Source: Methanoregula sp. PtaB.Bin085
GTDB lineage: Archaea; Halobacteriota; Methanomicrobia; Methanomicrobiales; Methanospirillaceae
Reading direction: 5' to 3'
Length of the DNA stretch: 45,426 nucleotides
Assembly: GCF_002067035.1 (NCBI RefSeq)
Contig: NZ_MVQB01000041.1
Span: 1 to 45,426, forward strand
Made by a program: the position numbers and the translations under genes. The notes beneath the pieces were generated by a model that ran no database searches, was not told the DNA's origin, and saw only the letters and a list, made by a program, of their open reading frames with translations. Each line of letters opens with the position of its first letter. Within the stretch, counting starts at the first letter, position 1. This document shows positions 2,491 to 45,426 of the stretch, one piece after another.

Positions 2491-3213
2491 ATGGAACGTT
2501 CTTCCAATCCGGCACTCCGGGACGAGATATTCTACCGCTCCCTCCTCAACGGCACCGAAGACCTGATGACCGTCCAGGGCACGATCAACAAGACCCTGGT
2601 CCTCCTTTGTATCGTGCTGGTCACCGCTGCACTCGTCTGGAACAGTTATTCCATCGTGTTCCCGATCATCATCCCCGCCATGATCGGCGGCCTGATCGTA
2701 GCGCTCGTGACGATCTTCCGGCAGCAGTGGTCACCGTATACTGCGCCGGTATACGCCCTCTTTGAGGGCATCATCCTCGGAGGGATCTCCGGGTACATGG
2801 ACGCCCTGTATCCGGGTATCGTTGTCCAGGCTGTTGCCCTCACGTTCGGGGTATTCTTCCTGCTCCTGATCGTCTTCTCGACGCGCCTGATCCAGGTCAC
2901 GGAGAAGTTCCGGCTTGTTGTGATCGCGGCAACGGGTGCCATCGCGCTCCTGTATATTGCGGACATCGTGCTCGGGTTCTTTGGCAGGCCGGTCGGATTC
3001 GTCCACGAGAGCGGGATCTTCGGTATCGGCTTCTCTCTCGTTGTCATCGTGATCGCGTCCCTCAACCTGATCCTTGACTTCGATTACATCGAGAAGGGCG
3101 TTGAGCACGGTGCGCCGCGATACCTTGAGTGGTATGGTGCGTTTGCCCTGCTCGTAACCCTTGTCTGGCTCTATCTGGAGATCCTGCGGCTGCTTGGCAA
3201 GATGCGGCGATAA
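2491..3213 (+). CDS. Bax inhibitor-1/YccA family membrane protein
   Basis: A 240-aa integral membrane protein with about seven hydrophobic segments. The N-terminal helper region (residues 1-30) is followed by two TM helices, then FEGIILGGISGYMDALYPGIVVQAVALT, which matches the conserved G-rich TM3-TM4 region of BI-1/YccA proteins. The C-terminal half has the NLILDFDYIEKGVE motif typical of the family, including the paired aspartates proposed to sense pH in bacterial homologues. These proteins are linked to ion leak and membrane stress; the archaeal role is not known. GAGGT precedes the ATG. A run of eight T (3229-3236) after the stop is a likely terminator. Confidence 0.9.
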   Translation: MERSSNPALRDEIFYRSLLNGTEDLMTVQGTINKTLVLLCIVLVTAALVWNSYSIVFPIIIPAMIGGLIVALVTIFRQQWSPYTAPVYALFEGIILGGISGYMDALYPGIVVQAVALTFGVFFLLLIVFSTRLIQVTEKFRLVVIAATGAIALLYIADIVLGFFGRPVGFVHESGIFGIGFSLVVIVIASLNLILDFDYIEKGVEHGAPRYLEWYGAFALLVTLVWLYLEILRLLGKMRR

Positions 3214-3228
3214 CCGTCAGGCTGTACC

Positions 3229-3236
3229 TTTTTTTT
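3229..3236 (+). terminator. T-tract after BI-1 gene
   Basis: Eight consecutive T residues begin 15 bp after the BI-1 stop codon. Archaeal RNA polymerase commonly ends at U-rich tracts without a stable hairpin. Confidence 0.5.
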
Positions 3237-3275
3237 ATCCTTCCTTCAGGGCGCGATGCAGCAGGACCGGGATCG

Positions 3276-3673
3276 TTATTCCGGCACCCTGCCGCATCCT
3301 GAACACCGGTAATGATGGACATCGATCGTGCCGGAGCATTCCCTGCAGGTCCAGCGCTCCCTCTCGTGCTTCACGAATGCACGGATGCCGTCTTTTCTGA
3401 TTGCGGCAAGGTTGTCGAGCATGCTCATACGGTACTTCGTGCGGTACCGCCTGTCGGGCTGCTTCAGCCGCCGGTACGGGAACCTCCTGCAGTCATGGGA
3501 ATATTTTCCCTTCAGGTGTTCACAGGCTGCAATCGCACAGTTCCTGCGGCAGCTGCAGTGTGCATCAGAGCAGCCCCGCACCGGTTCTTCTCCCGCAGAA
3601 AAGCAGAACAGAATGCGCAGTGCATGCCGCACGGGGCGATCAGCGTTGTCCTGATCGGATTCTTTGGTGCCAT
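3276..3673 (-). pseudogene. DUF3795 family gene broken by a frameshift
   Basis: Two overlapping minus-strand frames together make one DUF3795 protein. The N-terminal part (start ATG at 3673) reads LIAPCGMHCAFCSAFLREKNRC. The continuation, in another frame, reads GCSDAHCSCRRNCAIAACEHL and runs to CSGCGRVPE at 3276. Adding one base near 3574-3580, inside a C/G run, restores NRC-x-GC-SDAHC and gives a normal-length protein of about 132 aa rich in Cys pairs. DUF3795 proteins are small Cys-rich, probably metal-binding proteins. Either the gene is a recent pseudogene or a base was missed in the sequence. The Cys pairs on both sides of the break are intact, so any inactivation is recent. Confidence 0.75.
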
Positions 3674-3763
3674 GCCGGAGCATGGATTTCCGACCAGCAA
3701 ATACCGGGCGAACGGGAGGTGTCGTACCCGGGACCGATCCTGCCTGACCCGGGTTCCGGAATT

Positions 3764-3989
3764 AATTAAATTCGACCCCCCCCATAACACTTTTACGGAT
3801 TTTTCCGGATTCTCTCCCCGTAAAAACTCCAATAATTCTCGGATCCTGCAGTGCCTTCCCGCAGGGGTCGGATTTAATTTTCTGTCCGGATCCGTCCGTC
3901 TCCGAACGGGAAAATACCTGGTTTTACGGTGATGGATGTGGTTTTTCTGCTTTGCCGGACCGCTGGTAAAAAAATAAATCCGACCCCCC
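3764..3989. repeat. Three-copy CGACCCC element, locus A
   Basis: This fills most of the gene-free stretch 3674-4097. Three motif copies occur: + at 3764-3783 (AATTAAATTCGACCCC), - at 3864-3879 (GGGGTCGGATTTAATT) and + at 3972-3989 (AAATAAATCCGACCCC). Copies 1 and 2 pair at 15 of 16 positions; copies 2 and 3 share TAAATCCGACCCC exactly. Between copies 1 and 2 an inner hairpin TTTTACGG/CCGTAAAA is visible, and TTTTACGG recurs between 2 and 3. Related elements lie at 23032-23254 and 40837-41083. Confidence 0.75.
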
Positions 3990-4097
3990 GCATCCCCATG
4001 AATCGTTCCCTTCCTGCACTTTCACTCCGCGTCCTCCCGTTGTTTAAAAAGGGAATTTTGCAACCATCCTGATTGCAGTATACGGACGTGAAGAACC

Positions 4098-4463
4098 ATG
4101 ACCACACAGCGTATCGAAACCGGGACAGCTGAGGGAGACGCACTGGGTTTTTCTGCAAACTTATTCTCCGGCTGGCTCGAGCTGAAGACCGGCAGCAGGC
4201 TCTACCTTCATTATATCATCTCCCGCTGCCGCGACAACGGGAACACGCAGGCCCTGATCCGCAGCTGGCTGGACAGGGGGTACGATGTCCGGGTTGTCAT
4301 GCCCCGGCCGATCATGCAGCATATCCTGGAAAAACTGGGATTCATCCCCCTGCACGAGTACCTCCCGGACCAGTACGAGGATACCGTCGAGGTCTGGTAC
4401 CGGCCGGCCAGCCGGGTCATATCGCGGCTCCGGCCTCCCGGAACCCCGCGCCTGGTTTCATGA
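4098..4463 (+). CDS. Small protein resembling a GNAT C-terminal half
   Basis: A 121-aa soluble protein that I do not firmly recognise. The region about residues 50-108 (ALIRSWLDRGYDVRVVMPRP, then a helix ending in EKLGFIPLHEYL and DTVEVWYRP) has the feel of the last strand-helix-strand part of a GNAT fold, where a helix is followed by GF and a beta strand. The acetyl-CoA loop (Q/RxxGxG/A) is not visible, so it may be a truncated or diverged acetyltransferase. A GTGAAG lies just before the ATG and a TATA-like TTTAAAAAG is at about 4043-4052. Confidence 0.6.
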   Translation: MTTQRIETGTAEGDALGFSANLFSGWLELKTGSRLYLHYIISRCRDNGNTQALIRSWLDRGYDVRVVMPRPIMQHILEKLGFIPLHEYLPDQYEDTVEVWYRPASRVISRLRPPGTPRLVS

Positions 4464-4628
4464 TCCTGGATATTCCTCCGGAGCGGTCACCGGGAGTCAG
4501 AACGACTGGCGGTCGTGACCGGTCCCGGACCGGCAGGGTCAGCGGCTTTATGTAGGTACAGACCAATTTTTTTCCGGCAGTTCATACGATATGTTTCCGG
4601 TGTTCTTTTATCCGGTTCGGGAGGAATC

Positions 4629-7232
4629 ATGCCGCAGAGTGAATGGATGAATTACAGGAAATACGGTATTGCTGCGCTTGTCGTGGTTTTTGCGCTCTTT
4701 GCCCTCTGGATCCGGCTTCTCCCCATGGCCAATCTGGGATCTGCCGATATTCTCGACATGCCTGCCATGGACGACCCGATGTACAACCTGCGGCAGGTTG
4801 AGGTCATGCTTGCACAGTTCCCCGGGTACGCATGGTTCGAGCCGATGACGCTGTATCCGACGGGAGCGCAGATCTACTGGGGACCCCTGTTTCCGACCAT
4901 TATCGCGACAATCTGTATGCTGACCGGGGCTGCAACCCGCCCCGGGATCGTCTCGGTAGCCCTCCTTGTCCCGCCCTTCCTTGCTGCAGCCACGGTTGCT
5001 GTCATGTATTTCACCGGCAGGGTGTTCGGTGACTGGAAGACGGGTGTCCTTGCATCGGGATTTACCGCAATAATCGCCGGACAGTTCCTCGCGGTTTCGT
5101 TCTACGGGTATATCGACCACCATATCGCGGAGGTTCTCTTCTCGACGATCTTCTGCCTGCTCTACGGGTACACCCTGCTGTCTGAAAAGGACCGGAAGAT
5201 CGACCTCAGGGATCCTGCAGGTTACCGTCAGACCGCATTCCTCGCGATCGCGTGCGGCACAGCCTACCTCCTGGGTCTCTTCGTCATGCCGACGATGATC
5301 CTGTTTGCCATGATCGTTGCGATCTTCACCATCATCCAGTTTGTCATCGATTTCCACCGCAACCGGTCCAGTGATTATCTTCTCGTTCTCAACTGCGGGA
5401 CATTTGTTGTTGCCGCTATCGGCCTCCTCGCGTTCGGGTTCAAGAGCACCGATTTCAACCTTTCCAATTATTCTGCAGGCCACATCTTCGCATATGCCGG
5501 GCTGACAGGCGGGACCATCCTGCTCTGGTATCTCGCACGAATTCTCCGGGGAAGACCCTGGTATTACTATCCCGGCTCCATCGCGGGCATCGGGCTTGCG
5601 TCGGCAGTGGCACTCTTTGTTGTCAGCCAGCCGCTCTTCACCCTGTTTGTCTACGGGCTGTACGCCTTCTTCGGGCAGCAGGCAATCACGGAGACGGTGC
5701 TGGAGGCCATGGGATGGTCGGCTGAACGTGCATGGTACTCCTTCAACTACGGCCTCCTCCTGATGGGTGGCGGGATCCTTGTTATCCTGTACCGCAACAT
5801 CCGCGAGGAACACCCCCACCATATTTTTGCCCTTACCTGGGCACTCGTCATGCTCGTCTCTACATGGCAGCATATCCGGTACGAATATTATCTTGCAATC
5901 TGCATCGCACTGCTTGCGGCGATCTGCGTCTCCTTTGTCATCGACCTTGTCTGGCGGGATATTCCCGTTCTGGCACGGGGCACGTCCCCTGACCGTGATG
6001 CAGAAGGAACAGATGGTCACGAAACCGGAACTGCATCCCGGAAGAAAAAGCAGAAACAGGTCCGGAAGAAATCCGGTTCTTCGGACCTGGCAGCATACTG
6101 GCACATCGCTCCCGGTGTTCTTGTCATCGGGCTCTCCCTGCTGTTCGTGTATACGTCAGTATCGATGTCCTATTCCTTCATGTCCGCATTCGGTCCCCAG
6201 ATGGATGGCGACTGGAAAGAGTCGCTGCTCTGGATGGGCAACAACACGCCGGACCCCGGAGTCGGCTATCTCGCGATCCATGACCAGAAAACCTTCCGGT
6301 ATCCGGCGCAGTCGTACGGTGTCATGTCATGGTGGGATTACGGCCACGTTATCACGTACATCGCGAAGAGGATCCCCAATGCAAACCCGTTCCAGCAGGG
6401 CGTGGCGGGGCCCAACGGGTCTGCCGCCTATTTCGTGGCTAACGACGAGGAGGCCGCCAACCGAATCCTCGATGCTGTCGGAACGCGGTATGTCGTTACC
6501 GATTATGCGATGGATGATATCGTGACCGGCAAGTTCCACGCCATGGCGACCTGGTACAACAGTTCTGCAGGGAGGGCGCCGTTCATCGGGATGTTCCTTA
6601 TCCCAAGCCGGCAGAACCCGGGCCGCTACGAACCTGCCACGTTCCTCCGCCAGGCGTATTACCTGACCATGGTCTCGCGGCTGCACAATTTTGACGGGTC
6701 GATGACAGACCCGCAGAAGGTGTACTACATCGAATATGATGAATCCGCGGCTGCACGGTTCGGCATACCGGCAATCACGAGTGGCAGTCTGCTCAACTAT
6801 ACTGAAGCAGCAGAAAAAGCTGCAGTATATAATGCCAATGCAACGGCCGGCAGGCATGCCGGTATCTTCAACCGCGACCTGACCAGCCCGGTCGAGACCG
6901 TCCCCGCCCTGCGCCATTACCGGCTGGTTCACGAGTCCCCGACGATTGTCAATAACCCTGCCGCAGCAGATGTGCGGACAGTCAAGGTCTTCGAGTACGT
7001 GAAGGGTGCGCATATCAAAGGCGAGGGTATCATCAGCGTGCCGATGGTGGCCAATACCGGCCGCCACTTCACCTACCGCCAGCAGAGCGTCAACGGGGAA
7101 TTCATCGTCCCCTTTTCGACCACCGGAAATCCCTATGACGTAAAGGCAGAGGGCCAGTACCGTATCGAGGGGACGGGTAAGACATTCGATGTTCCGGAGA
7201 GCGCCGTGATGAGCGGGGCAGCAATCAACTGA
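4629..7232 (+). CDS. aglB: Dolichyl-phosphooligosaccharide-protein glycotransferase (STT3/AglB)
   Basis: This enzyme moves the lipid-linked glycan to Asn in N-x-S/T sequons of exported proteins, at the outer face of the membrane. The 867-aa protein has about 13 TM helices in residues 10-510, then a soluble domain. Visible motifs are the first acidic motif AMDDPMYN (D48/D49), the YIDHH motif (D163), and the signature WWDYG at residues 568-572 followed by GHVITYIAKRIPNANPFQ. A Lys-rich loop at about 460-480 precedes the last TM. The frame is open further upstream, but GGGAGG before the ATG at 4629 and the TM start favour this start. Heavily sequon-rich surface proteins lie in the same window (10.1, 41.5 kb) and are likely substrates. 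A T6 tract follows the stop. Confidence 0.95.
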   Translation: MPQSEWMNYRKYGIAALVVVFALFALWIRLLPMANLGSADILDMPAMDDPMYNLRQVEVMLAQFPGYAWFEPMTLYPTGAQIYWGPLFPTIIATICMLTGAATRPGIVSVALLVPPFLAAATVAVMYFTGRVFGDWKTGVLASGFTAIIAGQFLAVSFYGYIDHHIAEVLFSTIFCLLYGYTLLSEKDRKIDLRDPAGYRQTAFLAIACGTAYLLGLFVMPTMILFAMIVAIFTIIQFVIDFHRNRSSDYLLVLNCGTFVVAAIGLLAFGFKSTDFNLSNYSAGHIFAYAGLTGGTILLWYLARILRGRPWYYYPGSIAGIGLASAVALFVVSQPLFTLFVYGLYAFFGQQAITETVLEAMGWSAERAWYSFNYGLLLMGGGILVILYRNIREEHPHHIFALTWALVMLVSTWQHIRYEYYLAICIALLAAICVSFVIDLVWRDIPVLARGTSPDRDAEGTDGHETGTASRKKKQKQVRKKSGSSDLAAYWHIAPGVLVIGLSLLFVYTSVSMSYSFMSAFGPQMDGDWKESLLWMGNNTPDPGVGYLAIHDQKTFRYPAQSYGVMSWWDYGHVITYIAKRIPNANPFQQGVAGPNGSAAYFVANDEEAANRILDAVGTRYVVTDYAMDDIVTGKFHAMATWYNSSAGRAPFIGMFLIPSRQNPGRYEPATFLRQAYYLTMVSRLHNFDGSMTDPQKVYYIEYDESAAARFGIPAITSGSLLNYTEAAEKAAVYNANATAGRHAGIFNRDLTSPVETVPALRHYRLVHESPTIVNNPAAADVRTVKVFEYVKGAHIKGEGIISVPMVANTGRHFTYRQQSVNGEFIVPFSTTGNPYDVKAEGQYRIEGTGKTFDVPESAVMSGAAIN

Positions 7233-11832: not shown

Positions 11833-12079
11833 CAGACGCTCCTGTGAGGAAATTTGCGTGGGTCGGTGACACGCCGAAACAGAATCGTGTATCACCTGGT
11901 ACCAGAGTCATTGGGAGAGCAGATAAATTCCCCGAATAACCGTGGTTGGAGGGTGTAACTCAGGAGTTAAATGCTGGAACCTGCGGGATGCAAACGGGGA
12001 GAGAATTTAAACCGTAACGACATTATCTTGTGGTGCGAAAACAAGTACCAATGCTACGAGCACATGCTGGTGGAGCGTA

Positions 12080-12868
12080 ATGGCGGACCCTGCAGACAAA
12101 TCCCCTACCCTGATCATCCATGAAGAGTCGGACTCGCTTGAGGAACTCTCGGAATACCTCGATGTCCTTTCAAGCAGCGCCCGGCTCAGGATCCTGAAGT
12201 TCCTTGAGAAGAAACCGCGCGATGCACGTTCGATATCGCGCGAGATCGAGACCAGTTATGAAAATACCAAGAAACATCTCGACAAGCTCCTGAGCATCGG
12301 CGTTATCAAGAAAGAGGCCGGCCTCGGGGCCCCCACGTCAAAAGGGATCCACCCGGTCTGGGAATATTCGCTCGTGCCCGGGGGGCTTGAAGCAATTATC
12401 CGCAACCTCGGGCTCTTTTCCAACACCAAGGTTCAGGTAATGGGAAGCGAGATCGCCAAAAGGCTCGATGAGGTCAAGAGCACGCTCAACCGGGAGGTTC
12501 TCGGTGACGTTCCCGCGGTCATCATCCTTGGCGGATCGGACGATGCCAGGGTTTTCCTCCTGAAGACCGACACGGTCAGTATTGGCAGGGTCGACCCGGC
12601 GAACCGTGCGGCATACCGGGACGGCGAGGACGTGGTACTCTCCGAGAGCTACTCGGCAGTCACCCGCGTCTCCAGGCCCCATGGCAGGATCGTCAGGGAC
12701 AAGGACGCCTGGTATATCGAGGATTGCGGCAGCACGGGAGGCACCCAGCTGAACAACAGGCGCCTCGAGAAGGGTATCCGGACGCTGCTCCACGATGGCG
12801 ACCTCGTGGAACTGGCAAAAGGGGTCACCGGGGTCCGGTTCCTCGTGATCCTTCCAAAGGATCATTGA
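12080..12868 (+). CDS. Winged-helix regulator fused to an FHA domain
   Basis: The 262-aa protein has an ArsR-like winged helix at about 22-80 (SARLRILKFLEKKPRDARSI, then NTKKHLDKLLSIGVIKKE), a coiled linker (about 110-150), and a C-terminal FHA domain (about 155-260). The FHA marks are VSIGR, SRPHGRI and DCGSTGGTQLNN, close to the GR / SRxH / STNGT pattern that reads phospho-threonine. The design suggests DNA binding switched by binding to a phosphorylated partner, or by its own phosphorylation. The receptor-type Ser/Thr kinase starts 81 bp downstream on the same strand, which makes it the obvious partner. GGAG precedes the ATG; GAATTTAAACC at about 12003 is a likely promoter element. Confidence 0.88.
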   Translation: MADPADKSPTLIIHEESDSLEELSEYLDVLSSSARLRILKFLEKKPRDARSISREIETSYENTKKHLDKLLSIGVIKKEAGLGAPTSKGIHPVWEYSLVPGGLEAIIRNLGLFSNTKVQVMGSEIAKRLDEVKSTLNREVLGDVPAVIILGGSDDARVFLLKTDTVSIGRVDPANRAAYRDGEDVVLSESYSAVTRVSRPHGRIVRDKDAWYIEDCGSTGGTQLNNRRLEKGIRTLLHDGDLVELAKGVTGVRFLVILPKDH

Positions 12869-12869
12869 G

Positions 12870-12912
12870 ATATTTTATATTCCTTGTACAGCGAACCTTA
12901 TTTTTAAACATT
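12870..12912 (+). promoter_or_regulatory. Possible promoter for the receptor kinase
   Basis: The gap after the FHA gene has ATATTTTATATTCC (about 12872-12885), a good TATA match about 70 bp before the kinase ATG. The kinase may thus have its own promoter in addition to read-through from the FHA gene. Confidence 0.4.
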
Positions 12913-12949
12913 GGACGCGGGGACAACAGGATCCCCAAAGAACCGGCTC

Positions 12950-15241
12950 ATGATACTGCACTCCCGTTTTATCAGCATGCTGACTCTCGCGGCGCTGCTT
13001 CTTATGAGCGTATGCTGCCTGCCGGCTGCTGCCGCAGAGCACATCGTTGCCCCGTCGGGAGCTGAATTTGTCTCCATCCAGGAAGCGGTCGAGTGGGCCT
13101 CGGCCGGGGATGTCATATTTGTCGAGAGCGGGACCTACTTCGAGACCATAACCCTGAACAAAAAGATCGCCCTTGTCGGTATCGACAGCGGCCGCGGGCT
13201 CCCGGTCATCGATGCCGCCCGGAAAGGCAACGGCGTGGATATCCGGGTGGATAACTGTACCGTCGAGCACTTTGTCATCCAGAACGGGTCGCTCTTCGCC
13301 GGTATCCGTGCCGGATCCAGTGACAATATCCTGCGGAAGAATACGATCCGGGATTTCAGCCAGGGAATCCTCCTCGACTCCTCGAAAGGGAGCCTTGTTA
13401 CCGGCAACAATATTACCCAGAACGGACGGGCGGGGATTGCCCTTGAATCGTCGAATTCCAATGACATCGAATACAACAGCGTATCGAAGAATACCATCGG
13501 GATCACCCTCGATGAGTATTCGCTGTCAAACAGGATCAGCCGGAACAACTTCATCAACAACCAGAACGTGATCTCGAAGAGCGCCACCTCGCGGTGGGTG
13601 TCCCAGGATACGTTTTCCTATACCTACCTCGGCCACCGGCAGCAGAGCCGGATGGGCAACTACTGGAGCGATTACCGGGGGAAGGACCGGAACAGTGACG
13701 GTATCGGTGACACACCCTACACGATCACGCTCGGGGGCAATCCCAAGGCTATCCTCGAATCCAGCCAGAACATCATCGATGCGTATCCTCTCATGGATCC
13801 CACGGATTACTATACCAGTGTATCCGTTGTCCCGCCATCGGCTGTGACAAACCCCGTGTTCCCCGGGACAACGGAATCCGCCCAGACATCGCCTGCAGCC
13901 GCGGTGACAACCCCCCTGCCGCAAACTCCCCGGCAGCCCCTTGTCCGCGGCTTTTCCCTCACCGGCCCGGTTATCCTGTGGGGATCAGTGATTATCCTTG
14001 GCATCGCGATCGTTTCAGGTCTGTACCTGATGCGCCGGAGGAAAACCGGCAGCGGAACACCCCCGGCAGAAGAACCCGCACCCCCCGCACCCTCCGTACC
14101 GCCCGAATCTGCCGCAGAACCGGATAATCTTAACCAGGCCGCAGGAACGGACGGCATATCCTCCCAGGATACCGTGGCCATGCCTGCTCCTCTTGCACAG
14201 CGGGTTACCGACGGACTGAAAACCGCCCTGATTGGCATCACGAAGACCACGACAGAGGTTGCACGGGCTGGCGCTGCAGCAACCATCCCGCTCACCGCCA
14301 GGGCGGCGGAGGTCCTCCGGACCGTGGTTGCCGACCGTTCGCGATCCCCCGCACCGGCAACCGCGGTGCCCCGGACCGCCCACCCTGAGGCTCTTGAATC
14401 CCCCCCGATCGTTCCCGCTCCTGAGCAGAAGAACTATTTCCCGCGGGAGCTTGAGAGCAAGTATACCGATATCACCTACGTGGGAAGGGGCGGCATTGCC
14501 TGGGTCTTCTCAGCAAGGAGAAAGGATAACGGCGTGAAAGTTGCCGTCAAGATCCCCATCAGTTTCGATGAGACGACCGGAAAGTGTTTCCTGAACGAGA
14601 TCGCGGCATGGGAGACCCTGCGCCATGACAATATTGTCGAAGTGACGGCAGTCAATATCCTTCCCGTCCCCTACGTCGAGATGGAGTTCGTGCCCGGTTC
14701 GCTGGAGGCCATGGAAAAACCGCTGCCGGTCTGGAAAGCGGTGCATATCATCCGGGGAGTGACCGCCGGTCTCCAGTACGCCCACGAGCACGGGTTCATC
14801 CACCGCGACATCAAGCCCCACAATATCCTTCTGACGGACGACGTGGTGCCCAAGATCACGGACTGGGGAATGAGCAAGGTGCTTGCCGCAGACGTAAAGA
14901 AGTCGAGCATTGCCGGGTTCTCGCTCTCGTACGCGGCGCCCGAGCAGGTTTCCCCGACGGAGTTTGGCAGGACCGGCGAACGCACGGATATCTACCAGCT
15001 GGGCGTGGTCTTCTACGAGCTGGTGACCGGATCGATCCCGTTCGGCGGCGAGAGTATCGTCGAGGTCGGGAATTCAATCCTGCGCGACGACCCGACCCCG
15101 CCCTCGGAGTACAACCCCGATGCCGAGGCCGTCCAGAAGATCATCCTGAAATGCCTTGAGAAGGACCCGGAACGCCGCTACCAGTCTGCTGCCGAGCTGC
15201 TGGGAGCCCTTGACGGGTACCTTGACGAGGATGACGGATAA
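12950..15241 (+). CDS. Transmembrane Ser/Thr protein kinase with extracellular NosD-like beta-helix
   Basis: The 763-aa protein is a receptor-type kinase. It has a signal peptide (SMLTLAALLLMSVCCLPAAAA), then a parallel beta-helix of PbH1/NosD repeats (about 30-270; NNITQNGRAGIALESSNSND) ending in the GNYWSDYRGKDRNSDGIGDTPY motif common in such proteins, a Thr/Pro stalk, one TM helix (about 340-361), a Pro/Ala-rich linker, and a kinase domain (about 505-760). Catalytic parts are intact: glycine loop GRGGIAWVFSA (about 511), K534 in VAVK, HRD at 618-620 with KPHN, DWG at 638-640 in place of DFG, and YAAPEQ. It probably senses an outside polymer and phosphorylates cytosolic targets such as the adjacent FHA regulator. 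A TTG at 12911 is an alternative start. Confidence 0.9.
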   Translation: MILHSRFISMLTLAALLLMSVCCLPAAAAEHIVAPSGAEFVSIQEAVEWASAGDVIFVESGTYFETITLNKKIALVGIDSGRGLPVIDAARKGNGVDIRVDNCTVEHFVIQNGSLFAGIRAGSSDNILRKNTIRDFSQGILLDSSKGSLVTGNNITQNGRAGIALESSNSNDIEYNSVSKNTIGITLDEYSLSNRISRNNFINNQNVISKSATSRWVSQDTFSYTYLGHRQQSRMGNYWSDYRGKDRNSDGIGDTPYTITLGGNPKAILESSQNIIDAYPLMDPTDYYTSVSVVPPSAVTNPVFPGTTESAQTSPAAAVTTPLPQTPRQPLVRGFSLTGPVILWGSVIILGIAIVSGLYLMRRRKTGSGTPPAEEPAPPAPSVPPESAAEPDNLNQAAGTDGISSQDTVAMPAPLAQRVTDGLKTALIGITKTTTEVARAGAAATIPLTARAAEVLRTVVADRSRSPAPATAVPRTAHPEALESPPIVPAPEQKNYFPRELESKYTDITYVGRGGIAWVFSARRKDNGVKVAVKIPISFDETTGKCFLNEIAAWETLRHDNIVEVTAVNILPVPYVEMEFVPGSLEAMEKPLPVWKAVHIIRGVTAGLQYAHEHGFIHRDIKPHNILLTDDVVPKITDWGMSKVLAADVKKSSIAGFSLSYAAPEQVSPTEFGRTGERTDIYQLGVVFYELVTGSIPFGGESIVEVGNSILRDDPTPPSEYNPDAEAVQKIILKCLEKDPERRYQSAAELLGALDGYLDEDDG

Positions 15242-15289: not shown

Positions 15290-15481
15290 ATGGCAGAACA
15301 GGAAAAGCTCTACGAACCTGCCATCTGTGCCGGCTGCGAAGGTCTCGGCTGTTCCTATTGCCGGGGAACCGGGAGCGTCCTTGTCGAATCCCCGAAGAAA
15401 AAGTGCCCGCACTGCGATGGTGCGGGATGCATCTACTGCGGTTTCACCGGCTGGCACCGCCCCAAAGGGAAGTTCGACTGA
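15290..15481 (+). CDS. Small DnaJ-type zinc-finger protein
   Basis: The 63-aa protein is almost all CxxCxGxG-like modules: CAGCEGLGCSYCRGTG and CPHCDGAGCIYCGFTG. These are the zinc centres of the DnaJ cysteine-rich domain, here without a J domain. Such tiny proteins probably bind zinc and act as folding or redox helpers; the exact role is unknown. It lies 48 bp after the kinase gene. A GGAGG is present but 16 bp before the ATG, which is longer than normal. Confidence 0.8.
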   Translation: MAEQEKLYEPAICAGCEGLGCSYCRGTGSVLVESPKKKCPHCDGAGCIYCGFTGWHRPKGKFD

Positions 15482-16775: not shown

Positions 16776-17270
16776 TCAGCGGTTCTTTGGCGGGACGGCC
16801 TGAGCAGGAAGGGGGGCTCCCGAGGCATAGGCCTCGGTCTCCCCGTACTGGAGGATATGGCCCTGCAGGGCTGAGAGGAGCGCTGTCTTGCCGGAGCCAC
16901 CGGGGATCTGGAGGAAATCGTCGAGGCCGTAGACCCGGAAGAGGTAGCGGTGCGTCTCGCCGGGCCCGGGACTGGGGCCGGTCCAGCCGATAACACCGGC
17001 ATCGTTCAGACCCTGTATCGCGGAGATTGGATCGGCAATCTTCTTTCCTTCCGGGATGCCAGCGGGGATGGTCCTTGCTGCAGGCATGTCCCAGACAAGC
17101 CATGCACAGTAGGAGAGAACCTCCCTCACCGACGGGTTGAAGACCATGATGGCAAGGGAAGATGATTCATCGATTCCCTCGATGGTAATGGCAGGAGAGA
17201 GGTTTCCTCCGTTGCAGGTATGCTCCGGGGGGAAATCCTGGAATTCCAGACTGACATTCAGTTTTTCCAT
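16776..17270 (-). CDS. YbhB/YbcL-type PEBP protein 1
   Basis: A 164-aa phosphatidylethanolamine-binding/Raf-kinase-inhibitor-like protein. It has the family's CNGGNLSPAITIEG start, VWDMPAARTIPAGIPEG (the D-x-P/H region), GWTGPSPGPGETHRYLFRVYGLD and a C-terminal helix with GHILQYGE. Prokaryotic members have an anion-binding pocket; physiological ligands are uncertain. No signal peptide. It is the second of two tandem paralogues on this strand. A TATA-like GATATTTAAGC lies about 45 bp upstream. Confidence 0.9.
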   Translation of the reverse strand: MEKLNVSLEFQDFPPEHTCNGGNLSPAITIEGIDESSSLAIMVFNPSVREVLSYCAWLVWDMPAARTIPAGIPEGKKIADPISAIQGLNDAGVIGWTGPSPGPGETHRYLFRVYGLDDFLQIPGGSGKTALLSALQGHILQYGETEAYASGAPLPAQAVPPKNR

Positions 17271-17344
17271 AACAATCGCTTTATACCGGAGAAATAATGC
17301 CCCCGGGCTTAAATATCTAGTGGATACCCGGATTTCTGGTGCTG

Positions 17345-17797
17345 CTACCGTGAGCAGACTGCCGCAGTCTCGGCATACTGGATGACGTGCCCCTTCATTG
17401 CTGCGATGAGCGCATGCTTGTCCGAACCTGCCTGCAGGTCAAGCATGGTATCGAGCCCGTAGACCCTGAACTGGTACCGGATCATGCTGCCCGGCGGAGG
17501 ACAGGGACCGGTCCAGCCGATCGTCCCGTAATCGGTGATTCCCTGAACCGCGTTCACCGGCAATGTCGTCCTGCCGTCCCGGGGGATACCGGCCGGGATG
17601 ACGGGAATTGGCGGGAGATTCCAGCAGAGCCACGCGGTGAACGAGCAGCAGGCCTTTTCGAAGGGATTGAAGACCATGACGGCGATCGATGCTGCTGCAA
17701 GACCTTTAAGCCGCAGGGATGGCGAGAGGTTTCCGCCATCACAGGTATGGACGGGCGGGAACTCGAGGAAGTCAAGGGAGACGGTGAGCGGATCCAT
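17345..17797 (-). CDS. YbhB/YbcL-type PEBP protein 2
   Basis: A 150-aa paralogue of the next gene: CDGGNLSPSLRLKG, CWNLPPIPVIPAGIPRDG, GWTGPCPPPGSMIRYQFRVYGLD and GHVIQYAETAAV align position by position with it. The usual pocket Asp in WDMP is changed to Asn (WNLP) here, so the two may differ in ligand. The start at 17797 (MDPLTVSLDFLEF) matches its paralogue's MEKLNVSLEFQDF; an ATG at 17845 would add 16 residues. It follows the zinc-ribbon gene on the same strand and probably shares its transcript. Confidence 0.88.
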   Translation of the reverse strand: MDPLTVSLDFLEFPPVHTCDGGNLSPSLRLKGLAAASIAVMVFNPFEKACCSFTAWLCWNLPPIPVIPAGIPRDGRTTLPVNAVQGITDYGTIGWTGPCPPPGSMIRYQFRVYGLDTMLDLQAGSDKHALIAAMKGHVIQYAETAAVCSR

Positions 17798-17855
17798 TGT
17801 TCTTTCCAAGGGCGGACCGAAAGAAAAAGGCTCCGTTCCTGCCAAACCCTAGGAT

Positions 17856-41495: not shown

Positions 41496-44400
41496 ATGAA
41501 GACATCATGCTTACAGTTTCCTGTTCTTGTTGCACTGATCATCGGACTCCTTTTCACCGGATTTGCGTCTGCTGCCGGGGAAGAGACAGAAATGCCGAAT
41601 CTGACCCTGGAGGTTACACCGGAAATTACCCCGGCAGAGACCCCGGACATCTCTATTGACGATATCGCGGAGGTAATTCCGGATACAATACCTGAGAAAA
41701 TTCCGGAGACAACGACGGACCTTTTCACCGCTGAGATACTATCAGCAGACGATCTGCCGGCCCTGGATGCCGAAGACGGTTCCCTTGAAGCAAACTATAC
41801 CCAGAACCGGACCTCTGGCCCGGTCCCGCTTGCAATCCGGTTCTATGACCGGTCCAGCGGCACCGTGACAAACTGGAGCTGGGACTTCGGCGACGGGGAA
41901 ACCTCGGACCTGAAAAATCCCGTCCACACGTTTGCATCAGCCGGGACTTACACGGTGAGGCTCACGGTGAGCGACGGGATCATTTCCGATACATACGAGG
42001 TTATCGATCGGATCCGCGCGGACACGCCGGAAGCGCCGGTTGCCGCGATCTCGGCAAACAAGACCTCGTGGTCATCCCCGGCTGTAGTGCAATTCTATGA
42101 CCGGTCAACCGGGTACCCGACTTCGTGGGCATGGGACTTTGGCGACGGAACGACCTCGAACGTGAAGAACCCTGTCCACACGTACGAATCAACCGGGAAC
42201 TACACCATAACGCTGATCGTGACCAACAATCTTGGCACAGATACGATTACCAAAGATGAATATTTCCATGCATACGATCCGTCATCTCCTGTTGCTGCAT
42301 TGTCGGCAAACAAGACCTCGTGGTCATCCCCGGCGGTCGTGCAGTTCTACGACCGGTCGACGGGTTTCCCGACATCGTGGAGCTGGGACTTCGGAGACGG
42401 GACAACGGCGAACGTAAAGAACCCTGTCCATACCTATGCAGCGACCGGGAATTACACGGTCACGCTCACGGTTACCAATGACCTTGGTACGGACACGATT
42501 ACCAAAGATGAATATTTCCATGCATACGATCCGTCATCTCCTGTTGCTGCATTGTCGGCAAACAAGACCTCGTGGTCATCCCCGGCGGTCGTGCAGTTCT
42601 ACGACCGGTCGACGGGTTTCCCGACATCGTGGAGCTGGGACTTTGGTGATGGTGAAACAGCGAACGTAAAGAACCCTGTCCATACCTATACAGCAGCCGG
42701 GAATTATACGGTAACACTCACGGTCACCAATGACCTTGGTACGGACACGATAACACAGACCGAGTACTTCCATACGTATGATCCCAGAGCCCCGGCAGCA
42801 GCGATCTCTGCGAACAAGACGGCCTGGTCAGCGCCTGCAGTTATCCAGTTCTACGACCGGTCAACCGGTTTCCCGACATCGTGGGCGTGGGACTTCGGTG
42901 ACGGTGAAACAGCGAATGTGAAGAATCCGGTCCATACCTATGCAGCAACCGGCAATTACACGATCACGCTCACCGTGATCAACGATCTTGGATCCGACAC
43001 AAAGACTGCAACCGATTACATTATTGTGAGCGGTTCATCTGCCCCGGTCGCAGCGATCTCTGCGAACAAGACCTCGTGGTCGGCCCCGGCAGCGATACAG
43101 TTCTACGATCGGTCGGCCGGTTTCCCGACCTCATGGACATGGGACTTCGGTGACGGCACGACCTCGAACCTGAAAAACCCGGTCCACACGTATACCGCCA
43201 CCGGGAACTACACGGTCAACCTTACTGTGACGAACGAGGTTGGATCTGACACGAAGGTTGCGGTCGATTACATTAAGATCAGTAATTCCGCAGCCCCGGT
43301 CGCAGCGATCTCTGCGAACAAGACCTCGTGGTCAGCACCGGCAGCGATCCAGTTCTACGACCGGTCAACCGGTTTCCCGACCGAATGGCTCTGGGACTTT
43401 GGCGATGGTAACACGTCAACGCTGAAAAACCCGGTCCATACGTATACCGGTACAGGGAATTATACGGTCACCCTTACGGTATCGAACGACCTGGGAAGCG
43501 ACACAGCAGTCCAGACGGATTATATAAAAACAAGCCTTCCGGAGGCCCCGGCAGCATCTCTCTCGGCTAACAGGACGAGCGGCACTGCTCCCGTGGCAAT
43601 CCAGTTTTACGACCGGTCGGCCGGCTTCCCGACCGCATGGGTATGGGATTTCGGTGACGGAACGACTGCATCTGTCAGGAACCCGGTCCATACGTATATG
43701 ACGGCGGGGAACTACACGGTCAGCCTGATCGCAACCAACGATCTCGGCAGTAATACAACAACCCGGGCGGATTACATCAGGTTGACCGGGACACCCGCGC
43801 CGCTCCCGGTCCCGTACATCTGGTTTGATCCCGGTTCCGGAACGGCTCCCCTGTCGGTTATGTTCATGGGCAGTTCAGATGGATCACCGCTCAGCTGGAA
43901 CTGGAGTTTCGGTGACGGATCGTTCTCGGACCTCCAGAACCTGAACCACACGTACCAGGACCCCGGCCAGTATACTGTAAGCCTGACCGTAGGATATGCC
44001 GGAGGCACGAACACGAGCACCTTCCCCGGGGTCATTAACGTCACGGTTCCGGAGGAACCGCTGGCTGCCAACTTCACCGGGGACGTAACGGAAGGCCCTG
44101 CTCCGCTGACTGTCAATTTCACCGACATCTCGACCGGTTCCCCGACAAGCTGGAACTGGAGTTTCGGTGACGGCACGTTTGCGGAGGTGCAGAACCCGAA
44201 GCACACGTACGCTGCTGCCGGGAATTATTCCGTGTCGCTCGCGGTATCCAACGCGGGATCGTCGGACAGCCGGACAAGGACGGATTATATTGCTGCACTG
44301 CCGTCCGGGCCGGAATTTGATGCTGAAATTATCCTGAATTCAATGCCGACCACCATGTTCCAGGGCGAACATTATATTGTCGACATCAAGGTGAACAATA

Positions 44401-45426
44401 CCGGAACTGAGACATGGTATGCAGATCCGGCAAGCACCAATCTGGTCTACCTGCAGGGTCTTGGGGGTCCCTCCGGTAATGCATCACAATTCAACATCAC
44501 ACACATCCCGATGATCTTCCAGAACGAGACGGTGGCGCCTGGCGAGAGTTACGACTTCTTCTTCTACGTGAAGGCACCGGACACCATCGGCACCTACACG
44601 CCGGAATACCAGGTCAGCTCTGCCAGTGGCACGTTCGGGCCTGTGGCGAATGCGACCGTGAACGTCATCAAGAACCCGTTCCACCCGGTACTGCAGCCGG
44701 ACGGCTCGAAACTCTACACAACCACGTTTGGCAACACCAGTTCCGGCGTCAGCGTGAACATTGTCGGGCCGCGGGTGTATATTGACGACATCAAGGCTTC
44801 AAGTTTCGATGACCCGCGGTTCCTGATCAATCCCGCGCTGAAGAGCGGGGTTTTCAACCTGGAACTGAATGAATCGTTCAACTACGCAGATATCTCAATA
44901 AGGTACGACCCGGCAAAGACTACAACGCCATCCAACCTTGCGCTCGGTTACTTCAACTACACAACCGGTAATTATACCTTTATCCCGTCGACCGTTGACA
45001 CGACCAACCATACCGTCACATCCCGTGTGACGCCCGGGGATCTCGCCATGCGCGGCAGCAGCATCGGGGCTCTCGACCCCGTCCAGTACCATGCCCTTCC
45101 CGCCAACGCCCAGAACGAGATGGGGTACATGGATATCGGCGCGAATGACAACTGGACGATCTATCCGCCGGTTGATTCGTATGCTACAACGTCCTTTGCC
45201 AATGGTGCGAGTTTCCCGCCCGGGAACTATACCATCCTCACCAGCGGGTCGTACACCAGTTACTACGTCCAGTATATCGGCTGTGTCGGATGGGTCACCG
45301 CCGATAGTAATCCCGACAACACATACGGGTATTATGTTAACTTCAACAATCCGGCCGGCGGGTACAAGCAGGTCCAGAAACTCCGCGTAGCAAGCGGGAC
45401 CCTGAAGGTCGATCATAAAGGCGGCC
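41496..45426 (+). CDS. Giant PKD-repeat surface protein (partial, runs off window)
   Basis: The frame is open from ATG 41496 (GGTGGT before it) to the window end, at least 1310 residues. After a signal peptide (FPVLVALIIGLLFTGFASAA) and a Pro/Thr/Glu stalk come ten PKD domains, each with W-x-W-D/S-FGDG near its middle (at about 41880, 42132, 42384, 42636, 42888, 43140, 43392, 43644, 43902 and 44157). The first eight are spaced exactly 252 bp (84 aa). Each carries ANKTSW and GNYT sequons. After the PKDs come a NEW3-like beta domain (DIKVNNTGTETWY) and further unknown beta-rich parts with more N-x-T sites. It is most likely a glycosylated, wall- or S-layer-linked adhesion or spacer protein. Confidence 0.92.
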   Translation, partial: MKTSCLQFPVLVALIIGLLFTGFASAAGEETEMPNLTLEVTPEITPAETPDISIDDIAEVIPDTIPEKIPETTTDLFTAEILSADDLPALDAEDGSLEANYTQNRTSGPVPLAIRFYDRSSGTVTNWSWDFGDGETSDLKNPVHTFASAGTYTVRLTVSDGIISDTYEVIDRIRADTPEAPVAAISANKTSWSSPAVVQFYDRSTGYPTSWAWDFGDGTTSNVKNPVHTYESTGNYTITLIVTNNLGTDTITKDEYFHAYDPSSPVAALSANKTSWSSPAVVQFYDRSTGFPTSWSWDFGDGTTANVKNPVHTYAATGNYTVTLTVTNDLGTDTITKDEYFHAYDPSSPVAALSANKTSWSSPAVVQFYDRSTGFPTSWSWDFGDGETANVKNPVHTYTAAGNYTVTLTVTNDLGTDTITQTEYFHTYDPRAPAAAISANKTAWSAPAVIQFYDRSTGFPTSWAWDFGDGETANVKNPVHTYAATGNYTITLTVINDLGSDTKTATDYIIVSGSSAPVAAISANKTSWSAPAAIQFYDRSAGFPTSWTWDFGDGTTSNLKNPVHTYTATGNYTVNLTVTNEVGSDTKVAVDYIKISNSAAPVAAISANKTSWSAPAAIQFYDRSTGFPTEWLWDFGDGNTSTLKNPVHTYTGTGNYTVTLTVSNDLGSDTAVQTDYIKTSLPEAPAASLSANRTSGTAPVAIQFYDRSAGFPTAWVWDFGDGTTASVRNPVHTYMTAGNYTVSLIATNDLGSNTTTRADYIRLTGTPAPLPVPYIWFDPGSGTAPLSVMFMGSSDGSPLSWNWSFGDGSFSDLQNLNHTYQDPGQYTVSLTVGYAGGTNTSTFPGVINVTVPEEPLAANFTGDVTEGPAPLTVNFTDISTGSPTSWNWSFGDGTFAEVQNPKHTYAAAGNYSVSLAVSNAGSSDSRTRTDYIAALPSGPEFDAEIILNSMPTTMFQGEHYIVDIKVNNTGTETWYADPASTNLVYLQGLGGPSGNASQFNITHIPMIFQNETVAPGESYDFFFYVKAPDTIGTYTPEYQVSSASGTFGPVANATVNVIKNPFHPVLQPDGSKLYTTTFGNTSSGVSVNIVGPRVYIDDIKASSFDDPRFLINPALKSGVFNLELNESFNYADISIRYDPAKTTTPSNLALGYFNYTTGNYTFIPSTVDTTNHTVTSRVTPGDLAMRGSSIGALDPVQYHALPANAQNEMGYMDIGANDNWTIYPPVDSYATTSFANGASFPPGNYTILTSGSYTSYYVQYIGCVGWVTADSNPDNTYGYYVNFNNPAGGYKQVQKLRVASGTLKVDHKGG

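Follow-up and report, generated by a model that had tools for sequence, protein, structure and literature searches.

A wHTH-FHA regulator and an adjacent receptor Ser/Thr kinase form a candidate phospho-signalling pair in Methanomicrobiales

Gene organisation of the locus

The window, i.e. the whole stretch of DNA analysed, is the 45,426-nt contig NZ_MVQB01000041.1 (GCF_002067035.1) of Methanoregula sp. PtaB.Bin085, which belongs to the order Methanomicrobiales. It carries a gene for a regulator composed of a winged helix-turn-helix (wHTH) and an FHA domain, followed by a gene for a receptor Ser/Thr kinase (Table 1). Pfam searches and structure models confirmed the gene pair as described in the initial annotation: a wHTH fused to an FHA domain, and then a membrane kinase with a NosD-like beta-helix. 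The residue K534 named there is the lysine of the VAVK motif (numbering from the ATG at 12950; codon 14549-14551). An upstream TTG at 12911 is a possible alternative start of the kinase gene. Since a TATA-like TTTTTAAAC is present in the gap between the two genes (window 12890-12910), the kinase gene might have its own promoter too.

Directly 3' of the kinase gene, a 63-aa protein with repeated CxxC/CxG motifs is encoded (window 15290-15481), for which Pfam and NCBIfam searches returned no match. It was considered as a conserved third gene and rejected, as the strict motif occurred at one of 88 loci, the window itself. Elsewhere in the window are an AglB/STT3-type oligosaccharyltransferase gene (4515-7232), two neighbouring phosphatidylethanolamine-binding-protein (PEBP) genes on the minus strand that represent a tandem duplication (16776-17845), and a gene for a very large PKD-repeat protein that extends past the window end (41496-45426).

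Table 1 Features of the regulator-kinase locus (window coordinates; kinase model residues are numbered from 12911)
Feature	Position	Strand	Basis
Candidate operator, tandem dyad GGTT-N9-AACT-N4-AGTT-N9-AACC, 21 bp dyad to dyad	11944..11981	.	Upstream alignment, shuffles
BRE/TATA-like element GGGGAGAG-AA-TTTAAACC	11996..12013	+	Sequence
wHTH-FHA regulator gene, 262 aa	12080..12868	+	ORF list, Pfam, structure model
Thr10 codon, N-terminal tail, candidate phosphoacceptor	12107..12109	+	T in 114/114; hydrophobic +1, +3; pLDDT < 50
ArsR-like winged helix-turn-helix	12125..12373	+	HTH_5 5e-6; model residues 16-98
Linker helices, wHTH to FHA	12383..12502	+	Model helices 102-115, 123-141
FHA domain; Arg170, Ser198, His201 retained, canonical SxNGT Asn = Gly220	12515..12850	+	PF00498 9e-13; Foldseek; residue counts
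Receptor Ser/Thr kinase gene, 763 aa counted from ATG 12950	12950..15241	+	ORF, Pfam, structure model
Signal peptide / N-terminal hydrophobic helix	12950..13015	+	Model helix 14-35
Extracytoplasmic NosD-type right-handed beta-helix	13037..13828	+	NosD 1.5e-24, Beta_helix 7e-14; all-beta, pLDDT about 95
Transmembrane helix	13967..14041	+	Model helix 353-377; hydropathy of homologues
Juxtamembrane linker, disordered, Ala/Pro/Thr-rich	14042..14437	+	pLDDT < 50 across most of 378-504
Hanks-type kinase domain: GxGG, VAVK, HRDIKPHN, DWG, APE	14462..15184	+	PF00069 3.8e-41; residues invariant in homologues

Domain structures of the regulator and the kinase

The regulator matched the Pfam families FHA (PF00498, 9e-13; 48.9 bits, above the cut-off of 20.7) and HTH_5 (ArsR, 5e-6). 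A profile search likewise gave an HTH_5/HTH_20 match and detected no BTAD domain in the regulator. In the structure model, a disordered N-terminal tail precedes the wHTH (residues 16-98), helices (102-141) and the FHA domain (146-257), and these helices between the two domains are a possible dimerisation segment. FHA structures headed the list when the regulator was searched with Foldseek, and the matches included GarA, OdhI and EmbR. In the regulator, identity with the closest named relatives was 79-87%.

The kinase gene product matched Pkinase (3.8e-41), NosD (1.5e-24) and Beta_helix (7e-14), and its model consisted of a beta-helix (residues about 43-306, pLDDT about 95), a transmembrane helix (353-377), a disordered linker and a kinase fold (about 510-773). 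The catalytic residues were intact in 48 of 48 homologues, among which the Hanks-type Lys, the Glu of alpha C, HRDxKxxN, DxG and APE are invariant or nearly so; DWG replaces DFG. A NosD copper protein was considered for the outer part and rejected, since the product reached 126.6 bits against an NCBIfam NosD cut-off of 300 and has the beta-helix fold alone in common with NosD; no nos genes were seen near the kinase locus.

In a simple hydropathy scan, the kinase domain was preceded by a hydrophobic segment in all 101 kinases compared, 57 of which appeared to be single-pass proteins with a signal sequence and about 41 polytopic. NosD/beta-helix domains were found in 15 and PEGA domains in 16 of the 48 kinases scanned for outer domains. 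The outer part is thus exchangeable across the family (beta-helix, PEGA, S-layer-like, short or polytopic), and the linker varies in both length and sequence. Because of this exchangeability, the earlier proposal that the kinase senses an outside polymer was a guess and is unsupported; the types of outer domain suggest an envelope-related stimulus.

Pairing and co-divergence of the regulator and kinase genes

The genome of Methanoregula sp. PtaB.Bin085 has exactly three FHA genes, all of the wHTH-FHA type, and three receptor-type kinases, one adjoining each FHA gene. The three pairs differ in the outer part of the kinase, which is a beta-helix, a domain like the S-layer glycoprotein MEMAR_RS02690 (199 bits on part of the model, under the full-protein cut-off) or a short one. 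The genes of the pair with the MEMAR_RS02690-like kinase (L010 5807-7972, contig C63) are convergent, not collinear, and the same arrangement was found in another Methanoregula genome (L113). Two PEGA/PKD membrane proteins are encoded near this kinase (L010 9283-10533 and 12547-13809).

In 61 genomes of the family, there were 67 full-size wHTH-FHA genes, and a kinase gene was nearby for 60 of them: immediately downstream in 58, convergent in one, and about 5 kb on in one, separated from the regulator gene by a phosphatase gene and another FHA gene. The seven unpaired genes were all near contig ends (five from contig extents and two from coordinates), which rules out chance or misassembled adjacency. 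At 80 loci from named species representatives, the kinase was present in 72, and the contig breaks off at the remaining eight. The adjacency of regulator and kinase is far beyond chance, and its conservation, proposed at the outset as a check on the pairing, holds across Methanomicrobiales.

Across 296 sampled genomes of the phylum, full-length regulator matches were confined to Methanomicrobiales, with E-values dropping from about 1e-25 in the order to 1e-9 for wHTH-only matches; one family of the order (f3) had no wHTH-FHA regulator in this sample. FHA domains were found in 56 of the 296 genomes, and 50 of these 56 belong to Methanomicrobiales. The view that archaea rarely show such a chain is accordingly valid for archaea in general, as also reported (PMC6509490), but not for Methanomicrobiales, in which it is nearly standard.

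The distance matrices of regulators and kinases were correlated over 100 pairs (r = 0.87), though part of this correlation comes from common species history. As a stricter test, we compared quartets made up of two paralogues per genome in pairs of genomes, taken as resolved when the regulator margin exceeded 0.1. Regulator and kinase topologies were the same in 34 of 34 resolved quartets, and in 80 of 121 when unresolved ones were included; a genome may contribute to more than one quartet, so these are not independent observations. The agreement of all resolved quartets indicates that paralogous regulators and kinases diverged together. That the wHTH-FHA regulator and the receptor kinase are a real, order-wide cognate pair is strongly supported by these comparisons of genes and sequences.

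Two other arrangements were noticed. In genus g12 only, genes for short FHA proteins (174-198 aa) lie downstream of a large kinase gene and close to PP2C genes (G012, G024, G032, G039, G046, G052 and G058), constituting another phospho-signalling cluster. At L150/L204, there are two wHTH-FHA genes, the first followed directly by a PP2C gene and the second by a kinase gene, and the second regulator is divergent.

PP2C_2 genes were present in 46 of the 61 family genomes. In six (G002, G007, G013, G026, G034 and G057), a PP2C-type phosphatase gene is directly 3' of the kinase gene, indicating that writer, reader and eraser share an operon in some genera. PP2C was rejected as a fixed eraser, since it adjoins the kinase in those genera and yet a genome search found no PP2C_2 in Methanoregula sp. 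PtaB.Bin085, where SpoIIE-type and metallophosphatase genes are present.

Conservation of the FHA pocket and an N-terminal threonine

Residues were counted over 114 distinct aligned members of the wHTH-FHA family. The pocket Arg in the GR motif (G169 R170) and His201 of the Ser-x-x-His motif were kept in all 114, and Ser or Thr was at position 198 in 112. In well-studied FHA domains, the Asn of the SxNGT loop contacts the phosphopeptide. At this position, Gly was found in 109 members and Asn in two, and pThr binding by the regulators may therefore be weak, altered or lost.

Thr10 was invariant in all 114 members. It is situated in residues 1-17, which are predicted to be disordered (pLDDT < 50), and is followed by a hydrophobic residue at +1 and in most members by I, L or V at +3. 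In GarA and OdhI, a phosphorylated Thr in the tail is captured internally by the protein's own FHA domain. Thr10 is a candidate acceptor in a layout resembling this internal phospho-switch, and its invariance could also have another cause. Thr58, Ser59 and Thr63, which lie beside the recognition helix of the wHTH, were nearly invariant as well.

A tandem dyad upstream of the regulator gene

Alignment of the upstream regions of Methanoregula orthologues revealed the pattern GTT-N9-AAC-N6-GTT-N9-AAC, and all 12 half-site bases are present at 11944-11981 and in most of these orthologues. The half-site columns were 92-100% identical and most spacer columns far less so. This contrast is better evidence for the putative dyad than the shuffle count, in which all 12 bases were found in 20 of 110 upstream regions, while no mononucleotide shuffle reached 12 and at most 0.1% reached 11; since the upstream regions are related sequences, the 20 are not independent events. 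The distance from the end of the putative operator to the TATA-like element was 25-26 bp in most Methanoregula orthologues. The location of the dyad before the regulator gene suggests autoregulation, and its position just upstream of the BRE/TATA element suggests activation.

The dyad was clear only in Methanoregula and partial in some relatives. Several Methanolinea-type loci have the inner AACC-N4-GGTT core, and the Methanoculleus upstream regions among the 110 scored showed no dyad. A variant with N8 spacers was found upstream of the C63 paralogue and of its orthologue in another genome.

The best full-score match in the genome was the 11944-11981 site itself. A regulon prediction from the dyad was rejected, as the other matches carry one or two mismatches. 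A site before a GH18 gene (L255) and one before the gene for a PAS/receiver protein (L254) are no more than suggestive as targets, and others are inside genes. The former site, a two-mismatch copy (L255 2731-2768, contig C27), is upstream of a TATA-like element and of a secreted GH18 glycosidase gene (2869-4827), which is a possible but weak candidate target.

Discussion

Based on these results, we propose that the regulator and the kinase probably act as a one-to-one pair that works like PknH-EmbR. The receptor kinase, whose sensor (here the beta-helix) is outside the cell and whose kinase domain is inside it, would phosphorylate the wHTH-FHA regulator encoded next to it, most likely at Thr10 in the flexible tail. 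The regulator's own FHA domain would then bind pThr10 either in cis or, within a dimer, in trans, and this capture would alter DNA binding. Through binding of the wHTH to the tandem dyad upstream of the BRE/TATA element, the regulator would control its own operon, and presumably other genes too.

Other readings of the pair have to be weighed. The FHA domain may dock on the autophosphorylated kinase, at its activation loop or juxtamembrane linker, and the regulator may be phosphorylated at another site, as proposed for PknH-EmbR. Docking would then retain the regulator at the membrane or release it, and Thr10 would not be the switch. The long, disordered and Thr-rich linker of the window kinase and the conserved Arg170, Ser/Thr198 and His201 would fit such docking, and the FHA domain of EmbR is needed for both interaction and phosphorylation (PMC9239209). 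We nevertheless regard docking as unlikely, since the linker is conserved in neither length nor sequence, while Thr10 never varies. The replacement of the SxNGT Asn by Gly would fit an FHA domain that has ceased to bind pThr and only mediates dimerisation, with the kinase phosphorylating the wHTH, for example at the nearly invariant Thr58, Ser59 or Thr63, and thereby blocking DNA binding. However, the remaining pocket residues vary little or not at all throughout the order, which would not be expected had binding gone, and the Thr and Ser residues of the wHTH may be kept for DNA contact. This explanation thus appears improbable.

It is also conceivable that the two genes are adjacent and co-inherited while the main substrate of the kinase is elsewhere, the regulator merely controlling expression of the kinase operon. 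A dyad upstream of the operon would suit such a purely autoregulatory role, yet most of the other archaea sampled from the phylum have no FHA domain, those found here are almost only beside kinases, and the paralogues co-diverge; we therefore consider this very improbable. Returning to the Thr10 switch, it may be extended to an order-wide archaeal class, in which the EmbR layout is combined with a GarA-like internal pThr10 switch that controls DNA binding at a dedicated tandem-dyad operator, and exchangeable outer domains of envelope type monitor the cell surface. We put this extension forward tentatively, as a plausible rather than a probable reading.

Most archaeal genomes have been reported to be without FHA proteins, and those studied belong to one Thermoprotei family; the described archaeal case of Ser/Thr signalling from outside to a promoter is the archaellum network of Sulfolobales (PMC6509490). 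No report of a wHTH-FHA/kinase pair in methanogens was found in the open-access literature searched. Such signalling is poorly known in archaea. In this methanogen order, the compact two-gene chain, present as one to several paralogues, is nearly standard, and its candidate phosphosite and operator can be named. Archaeal transmembrane phospho-signalling thereby becomes testable with purified proteins.

In Mycobacterium tuberculosis, the regulator gene embR is upstream of the kinase gene pknH in the same operon (PMC9239209). The methanogen pair likewise has a membrane Ser/Thr receptor kinase gene directly downstream of the gene for a regulator that combines a DNA-binding domain and a C-terminal FHA domain, and EmbR was found as a relative by both Foldseek and profile search. 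EmbR, however, combines an OmpR/PhoB-like domain with BTAD (SARP family), whereas the methanogen regulator has an ArsR-like wHTH; since the DNA-binding and BTAD domains of EmbR are absent, the regulator would work like EmbR without being EmbR. The sensor domains, the archaeal promoter and the invariant N-terminal Thr also distinguish the two. As far as domains show, the methanogen pair was apparently built independently and adds an instance of the mycobacterial receptor-kinase/FHA-regulator design.

The regulator shares with the actinobacterial GarA and OdhI, whose structures (2kb3 and 2kfu) were matched, an FHA domain and a flexible N-terminal tail containing a Thr. Those proteins bind enzymes, have no DNA-binding domain and carry an ETTS motif, unlike the x-T-[ILV]-x-[ILV] context of the candidate site here. 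The ArnA-ArnB-ArnC network and ST0829 of Sulfolobales are similar in that an archaeal FHA protein and Hanks-type kinases act together in gene regulation (PMC6509490, PMC12852372). ArnA, which matched only weakly in sequence (5a8i, E = 0.007), differs in being restricted to Thermoprotei, in having a vWA protein as its partner and in not being a wHTH-FHA protein encoded with a receptor kinase. Finally, the pair resembles two-component systems in its one sensor kinase gene and one DNA-binding response gene, its exchangeable sensors and its co-diverging paralogous pairs, with a Ser/Thr kinase and an FHA domain in place of a histidine kinase and a receiver domain.
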